NCBI GenBank assembly: GCA_004172865.1
Contig: SEBV01000019.1
Coordinates: 1 to 64,000 of the forward strand
Length of the DNA: 64,000 bases
DNA from: Gammaproteobacteria bacterium
GTDB taxonomy: Bacteria > Pseudomonadota > Gammaproteobacteria > Pseudomonadales > Cellvibrionaceae
Reading direction: 5' to 3'
Shown: positions 14,074 to 14,452 of the stretch, in pieces
Position numbering within the stretch: position 1 is the first letter of the stretch
Layout of the letters: each line of letters opens with the position of its first letter
The notes under the pieces: generated by a model
What the model was told of the DNA's origin: nothing
The model's database searches: none
The model's input: only the letters and a program-made list of their open reading frames with translations
Made by a program: the position numbers and the translations under genes

Positions 14074-14178
14074 TAATTGGCTCACTTACAGACAAAACCT
14101 CAACGAGAGTTAGCGATTTCATAATCCGCAGGCAAGAGCCTCGACCAGAGTTAGCGATTTTATAATCTAAGGCCAAAG
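14058..14178 (+). repeat. three imperfect ~40-bp tandem repeats at the engB 3' end
   Basis: Units start at about 14058, 14098 and 14139 with the shared core CCTC-AC-AGAGTTAGCGATTT-ATAATC. Units two and three are close copies (AGAGTTAGCGATTT is identical in both). The first unit is degenerate and includes the engB stop codon. A partial fourth unit may run into the sRNA terminator (CCCCAACCAGAGGTCGG). Nothing here resembles a mobile-element end. Confidence 0.6.
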
Positions 14179-14200
14179 CTAGCAGTTGCATAACTTACAC

Positions 14201-14303
14201 AAAAAAAACCCCAACCAGAGGTCGGGGTAGCTTTGCATATATCTCACGCTTAGCTGGCAAATTGCCATTAGGGGAGGAGTTAGCTCATGAAAGTAAAACA
14301 CAC
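14201..14303 (-). ncRNA. probable sRNA at the ErsA / Spot 42 locus
   Basis: Predicted ~100-nt transcript on the minus strand between polA and engB. It would start about 6 nt after the -10 element of a sigma-E-type promoter (14309-14335). It ends in a strong terminator: CCCCGACC/GGTTGGGG stem plus eight T at 14201-14228. The body has a C-rich single-stranded tract, CTCCTCCCCTA (about 14270-14280), complementary to Shine-Dalgarno sequences, followed by the hairpin TGGCAATTTGCCA. P. aeruginosa ErsA (AlgU-dependent) and E. coli Spot 42 (spf) lie at the same place, between the engB and polA genes. Promoter, terminator, C-rich seed and synteny agree; sequence homology was not tested. The terminator could also serve polA. 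Confidence 0.65.
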
Positions 14304-14308
14304 ATAAC

Positions 14309-14335
14309 TGAGACTTAGCTCCACCCAATAAGTTC
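14309..14335 (-). promoter_or_regulatory. sigma-E/AlgU-type promoter of the sRNA
   Basis: On the minus strand GAACTT (14335-14330), 16 bases of spacer, then TCTCA (14313-14309). This matches the extracytoplasmic stress-sigma consensus GAACTT-N16/17-TCTNA. It would place the transcription start near 14303, about 75 nt upstream of the terminator stem. Confidence 0.65.
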
Positions 14336-14452
14336 ACGATATTTGTAAATAAATTTGCGATATTTTTGCACAATTACAAAAACACTTTTAAATCAATGAC
14401 TTATACGAAAAACTATTTTATAAAAAAATGAATATTAAGCTTCAGTTCAGGA

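Follow-up and report, generated by a model that had tools for sequence, protein, structure and literature searches.

Which RNA, if any, is encoded between polA and engB in this genome? We analysed a stretch of 64,000 nucleotides (the window) from a draft Cellvibrio-type genome (229 contigs, 3.56% contamination), in which polA (minus strand, match to the NCBIfam DNA polymerase I model) and engB (plus strand, TIGR03598 match) converge on a gap. In Pseudomonas, ErsA (Pseudomon-1, RF01719) is likewise a polA-engB intergenic gene on the polA strand with a sigma-22/E-type promoter motif. Excerpts of two reports describe it as sigma-22-dependent and as repressing algC by pairing at the ribosome-binding site with Hfq (PMC6321483, PMC8575079), and Pseudomon-1 is listed for Pseudomonadales in a third (PMC2864571). 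Spot 42 (RF00021) belongs to the same polA-yihA/engB space; an excerpt of PMC3295665 reports that it is repressed by cAMP and activated by glucose, and that in Vibrionaceae two sRNAs, Spot 42 and its neighbour VSsrna24, can share this space. The first-pass annotation of the window had proposed a stress-sigma-dependent sRNA at the ErsA/Spot 42 locus. We found a conserved sRNA gene there, here called sRNA1. From sequence comparison, and with a probability of roughly 0.7, we read it as a sigma-E-transcribed, Hfq-assisted repressor that would pair with translation starts and that is distinct from an ErsA orthologue. The gene and its surroundings comprise the following features (pair counts are from the alignment discussed below).

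14346-14374, minus strand: upstream element AATTGTGCAAAAATATCGCAAATTTATTT, A/T-rich; by eye, a similar sequence stands in most polA-engB copies aligned within the genus.
14330-14335, minus strand: -35 element GAACTT; GAACT[TA] in 23 of 23 genus copies.
14309-14314, minus strand: -10 element GTCTCA (TCTCA at 14313-14309); GTC in 23 of 23 copies, the last three letters varying.
14201-14308, minus strand: sRNA gene, delimited by conservation, covariance model R1 and covariation; predicted transcript about 100-108 nt, start expected at 14304-14302.
14268-14308, minus strand: 5' domain GTTATGTGTGTTTTACTTTCATGAGCTAACTCCTCCCCTAA, nearly invariant in the genus; its antisense reads SD-spacer-ATG-AAA.
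14269-14279, minus strand: C-rich anti-Shine-Dalgarno tract CTCCTCCCCTA, read from the sequence and predicted to be mostly unpaired.
14255-14267, minus strand: stem-loop 1, TGGC-AATTT-GCCA; 98% of cells paired, three of four pairs with two-sided changes.
14230-14254, minus strand: stem-loop 2, GCTaAGC...GCaAAGC; helices 2 and 3, with 93% and 80% of cells paired.
14201-14228, minus strand: intrinsic terminator CCCCGACC/GGTTGGGG with eight T; 99% of cells paired, four of seven pairs with two-sided changes.
14074-14200, no strand: remaining gap to engB, 127 bases; the place of a second unit in most relatives, with none detected here.

The elements read earlier on the minus strand (GAACTT-N16-TCTCA, the C-rich tract, the TGGC/GCCA hairpin and the eight-T terminator) were all found in place. 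The terminator stem occupies 14228-14208 and the eight T 14208-14201, with nine pairs, six of them G-C; in stem-loop 2, one particular pair does not form in 14 of the 28 sequences compared. The upstream element, which may be a UP-like or factor site, was not seen by eye in the aligned sequences of the two extra copies of the gene in the same genome, nor in L011, L022 and L023. A AATTGTGCAAAAA-like sequence often precedes both tandem promoters, at 14346-14374 in the window and before the second unit in relatives; it may represent a UP element or regulator site common to both. Two 29-nt direct repeats of 90% identity (14098-14126 and 14139-14167) occupy the place that the second sRNA takes in relatives.

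Considered by itself, the window offers limited evidence. GAACTT-N15..18-TCTCA occurs once in 64 kb compared with a mean of 0.10 in shuffled sequences (10 of 100 have one), which is only mildly unusual, and the single-sequence fold is modest (z -2.4, with 6 of 200 shuffles as good). Since the motif is mildly rare and the fold only moderately better than shuffles, the case for an sRNA rests on comparison. Using a 161-base query that included the promoter, blastn against 57 genomes detected sRNA1 in 20 of the 21 Cellvibrio genomes, the window genome among them, and in none of the 36 genomes of other genera; the single miss within the genus, G007, is 79% complete. Ten stretches were returned by an exact-pattern scan of a collection of 84,980 species, labelled Cellvibrio (6), Cellvibrionaceae (1) and Gammaproteobacteria (3), and every one of them carries polA or engB. 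All 23 aligned copies (25 alignment rows minus two read twice) keep GAACT[TA], a spacer of 15 or 16 nt and GTC followed by three free letters, with 5-6 nt between the -10 element and a conserved GTGT of the 5' domain. The first-pass annotation had staked its sRNA on conservation of the promoter and the C-rich tract in relatives, and both are conserved there.

The 5' domain is nearly invariant; the stem-loops and the terminator vary yet covary. In an alignment of 28 sequences fitted to the covariance model, whose pair counts hence lean towards that structure and in which L105 is visibly misaligned, 94% of cells were paired and 10 of the 17 pairs showed two-sided changes. Covariation reached 0.368; shuffles gave 0.138, none of 500 attaining the real value, and the slid controls collapsed. 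This model-based alignment was used instead of a MAFFT alignment (A1, 21 of the 23 copies), on which RNAalifold gave a misaligned terminator whose GGGG was paired with the C tract.

R1, a covariance model of ten genus sequences, matched 31 of 144 family genomes at E <= 0.01, comprising 20 of the 21 in the genus (ten of these 20 had a sequence in the model) and 11 outside it. Ten loci outside the genus were checked (L138-L147, setting aside G156 and a further place in G014), and seven of them, in seven genomes of genera g4 and g97, lie at polA-engB; the matches away from this place (L139, L141 and L146) were taken as chance. Several weaker R1 matches fell antisense over the terminator and were gone with a tighter cut-off, fewer sources and L019 left out. 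Six aligned rows from outside the genus kept the layout of UUUCAUGnGC followed by CUCC. Weaker look-alikes of sRNA1 were noticed by eye at the same place in g5, g14, g101 and g102. These comparisons suggest that sRNA1 is most likely a free-standing gene of a distinct, so far undescribed Cellvibrionaceae RNA family. Among the matches listed from the open literature, neither titles nor the beginnings of abstracts described a Cellvibrio sRNA or sRNA1.

Two other roles for the transcript were considered and rejected. A small coding gene did not fit, the longest closed frames ranging from 0 to 29 aa over 28 homologues and differing between copies (7 aa in the window copy), and neither did a CsrA/RsmA sponge, as the window transcript reads without GGA.

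The promoter class recurs at this place across the order. Among 78 EngB loci, 37 had a convergent polA and 41 had no polA within reach. Leaving out two gaps longer than 700 bases, three shorter than 100 and one duplicate gave 31 unique gaps of 100-700 bases, and GAACT[AT]-N14..17-GTC was found on the polA strand in 26 of these and on the other strand in one (50 shuffles: mean 0.26, maximum 1). Of the first-pass annotation, the sigma-E/AlgU-type promoter, a conserved sRNA gene in this space and a C-rich tract predicted to be mostly unpaired are supported. The single motif on the other strand is that of L105, where the second unit is inverted. In all five genus genomes checked (the window genome and four relatives) one RpoE was found over the cut-off, and GAACTTTT-N-GTC stands 83-180 bases before the chosen rpoE start. 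sRNA1 and the rpoE of its own genome share a promoter motif, as expected of the sigma-E-dependent sRNA class, and the strict motif has 16 occurrences in 1.5 Mb of this genome, including three sRNA copies and rpoE. One hfq gene was found there over the cut-off; in its predicted fold, sRNA1 has the conserved accessible seed, structured 3' part and U-tailed terminator of the sigma-E/Hfq class.

We then asked whether the RNA belongs to a known family. No Rfam family reached its cut-off in the window, and RF01719 and RF00021 were absent from the six matches at E <= 10. The identification with Spot 42 was not supported: RF00021 had no match in the window, either in the cut-off scan or at E up to 10. 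The ErsA reading survived in position and promoter class and found no support in identity, RF01719 (cut-off 50 bits) having no match to the window RNA at gathering or at E up to 10. Architecture differs as well. The 3' domain of ErsA has two hairpins with C-rich loops (RF01719 consensus), whereas the loops in the window are AATTT and TCT, and sRNA1 has its C-rich tract outside hairpin loops, in a 5' domain that is mostly single-stranded. Anti-hemB of Burkholderia (RF02837) resembles sRNA1 in a CUCCUCCC tract and a C-rich terminator, but its match is weak (17.7 bits, E 0.097) and far below the cut-off of 49.5; the same model gave 22.0 bits (E 0.005) with the second unit of L013.

This second unit sets sRNA1 further apart from ErsA. 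In most relatives, a second sigma-E-type unit lies downstream of sRNA1 towards engB, with GAACTT-N-GTCNNA followed by two hairpins, the first with a ACCCCAAG loop; CCCCAAG loops occur as well. R2, a covariance model of 14 second-unit 3' domains (eight rows from the genus), found it beside sRNA1 in 18 of the 21 genus genomes at no less than 36 bits. G020 has a weak R2 match at the locus (L007, 15.8 bits), G007 has none, and in the window genome the second unit was not found, the only R2 match being at chance level elsewhere (20.0 bits, E 0.085). R2 is unspecific near 18-33 bits, with 38 matches in 75 sources at E <= 1. Its matches in L040 (32.6 bits) and L057 (29.8 bits) fall on the unexpected engB strand and perhaps represent other C-loop RNAs or terminators. 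In the 445-base gap of L105 (G153), the second unit sits in inverted orientation between sRNA1 and engB, with a sigma-E-type motif of its own that is read on the engB strand.

Among 15 loci scanned with RF01719, three from f20 genomes (L083, L084 and L086) matched with 127-134 bits, and each of their gaps has one promoter motif. R1 did not match these three ErsA loci at E up to 1, R2 did not match them either, and RF01719 did not match the second unit of L013. A bridge is provided by L042, from another family and with CCCCCAAG loops, where RF01719 gave 40.7 bits (E 7e-7, below the cut-off of 50) and R2, at that very place, 18.2 bits (E 0.019). From this one bridge, the architecture and the position, we infer that ErsA and the second unit form one lineage. 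Because the window RNA is unmatched by the ErsA model and its family co-occurs in relatives with a separate ErsA-like unit that has the C-rich loops, sRNA1 most likely stands beside the ErsA lineage and not within it.

The window genome contains three copies of sRNA1. The two extra copies, on contigs C87 and C34, show 77% identity and keep promoter and body in other surroundings, with the similarity starting at the -35 element by eye; their C tracts differ (CTCCCTCC and CTCCCC). Compared with the window, tetranucleotide profiles of six stretches of these contigs gave correlations of 0.84-0.96 and those of other genera 0.69-0.78; the C34 stretch with the sRNA was the lowest of the six, and C30, another contig of this genome, gave 0.85. 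EngB, RpoE and Hfq were each found once over the cut-off. Composition and these single genes argue, not conclusively, against foreign contigs. One neighbouring protein of each extra copy was sought in seven relatives and was absent, except for a 50% match in one of them. G005 (L008/L023) has two tandem copies of sRNA1, both preceded by a promoter of their own.

How do other explanations fare in the light of these data? sRNA1 could be an ErsA orthologue that has diverged beyond recognition. It shares the gap, the polA strand, the promoter class and the presence of C-rich segments with ErsA. R2 misses the three ErsA loci and RF01719 the second unit of L013, so that the ErsA claim of the second unit itself depends on one bridge and on architecture. 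We nevertheless regard orthology as unlikely. RF01719 scores 127-134 bits in the three f20 genomes and finds nothing in the window, R1 finds none of the three ErsA loci, and most genus genomes carry sRNA1 together with the second unit, whose C-loop hairpins are the ErsA-like ones; L042 likewise connects RF01719 with R2, at an R2 level (18.2 bits) that is reached or exceeded on the unexpected strand too.

A trans-acting sRNA read by an ECF sigma factor other than sigma-E appears improbable. The window genome does have further ECF-like genes that match the RpoE model below its cut-off, but the same motif precedes rpoE in five of five genomes and the GTC core is present in 23 of 23 copies. It is very improbable that the conserved segment represents no more than the terminator region of polA or a piece of its 3' UTR: polA does lie directly upstream on that strand, yet 23 of 23 copies have their own promoter, and two copies in the window genome keep promoter and body away from polA. 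Our preferred reading remains an independent, sigma-E-type RNA gene outside the ErsA lineage.

To see what such an RNA might pair with, we turned to the 5' domain. The mean unpaired probability of the C-rich tract was 0.80 over 28 homologues (0.48-0.93) and 0.80 in the window copy, and the antisense of the tract, AGGGGAGGAGUUAGCUCAUGAAAG, corresponds to a ribosome-binding site and start codon. Pairing was compared with that of 60 dinucleotide shuffles of the seed. Among 819 ORFs (1.5 Mb), whose starts were picked partly by Shine-Dalgarno strength and thus favour any CU-rich RNA, the 5' domain paired with starts 1.42 kcal/mol better than with interiors (shuffled seeds 0.18; 0 of 60 as strong). 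With 792 ORFs begun at the leftmost ATG, the difference between starts and interiors was -0.37 kcal/mol, compared with a mean of +1.11 for shuffles (0 of 60 as low). These tests support start-region pairing in general, not particular targets, and they say little on specificity because any C-rich RNA pairs with Shine-Dalgarno sites. Export-like genes were not clearly better paired (p 0.09 for 160 ORFs, 0.70 for 819 ORFs and 0.056 for 792 ORFs).

A search of 21 genomes for the antisense 15-mer GGAGTTAGCTCATGA with up to two mismatches returned 166 places, sRNA copies included, versus 69 for a reversed control that is not start-like and hence too easy. No conserved target emerged among 40 places chosen by hand from the matches listed: no start region was common to more than two genomes, and the only one found in two was that of L238 and L239. 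One antisense match that recurs in six genomes is inside an open frame, and another recurring match is a repeat. A dUTPase-like start (named by eye) was represented by three copies from one genome. On the minus strand of L258 (G000:C91:60001-80000), the start regions of two ORFs, which by eye look urea-transporter ATPase-like and formamidase-like, are strongly complementary to the 5' domain (-23.2 and -22.8 kcal/mol, within the best 25 of 819), a lead from a single genome only.

These data are best explained by the following model. Under envelope stress, RpoE (sigma-E/AlgU type) would transcribe sRNA1 from GAACTT-N15-GTCTCA. The product would be an RNA of about 105 nt whose CU-rich 5' domain is largely single-stranded, followed by two small stem-loops and a terminator with a U tail. 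Assisted by Hfq, this 5' domain would pair with Shine-Dalgarno and start-codon regions of target mRNAs and so block their translation. The ErsA-like RNA of these bacteria would be the second, engB-proximal unit, in place of which the window genome has three copies of sRNA1. Small RNAs of this kind are familiar from enterobacteria, where RybB and MicA are sigma-E sRNAs. The sigma-E promoter, the Hfq-type architecture and the repression proposed for sRNA1 would be points of likeness. MicL is a further enterobacterial sigma-E sRNA, going by an entry in the reference list of PMC12153292.

If this model holds, sRNA1 would add a sigma-E-type small RNA to Cellvibrio, a genus without one among the literature matches listed. 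The locus indicates that sRNAs encoded in the polA-engB space are not always ErsA or Spot 42, and that the gap has room for two different sigma-E-type units. A single genome that has apparently lost one RNA and multiplied the other offers a natural experiment on the replacement of stress RNAs. A more speculative extension, which we consider doubtful, is that the polA-engB gap houses sigma-E sRNAs throughout the order, with new ones arising and replacing one another. Here the ancestral ErsA-like RNA might have been displaced by a multiplied, generic start antisense (SD, spacer, AUG-AAA) acting on many mRNAs at once and not on a few cognate targets. A different short unit was observed downstream of engB in L043 and L066 (family f29), with GAACTA-N-GTCTAT and CCATGGTCTAG in both.
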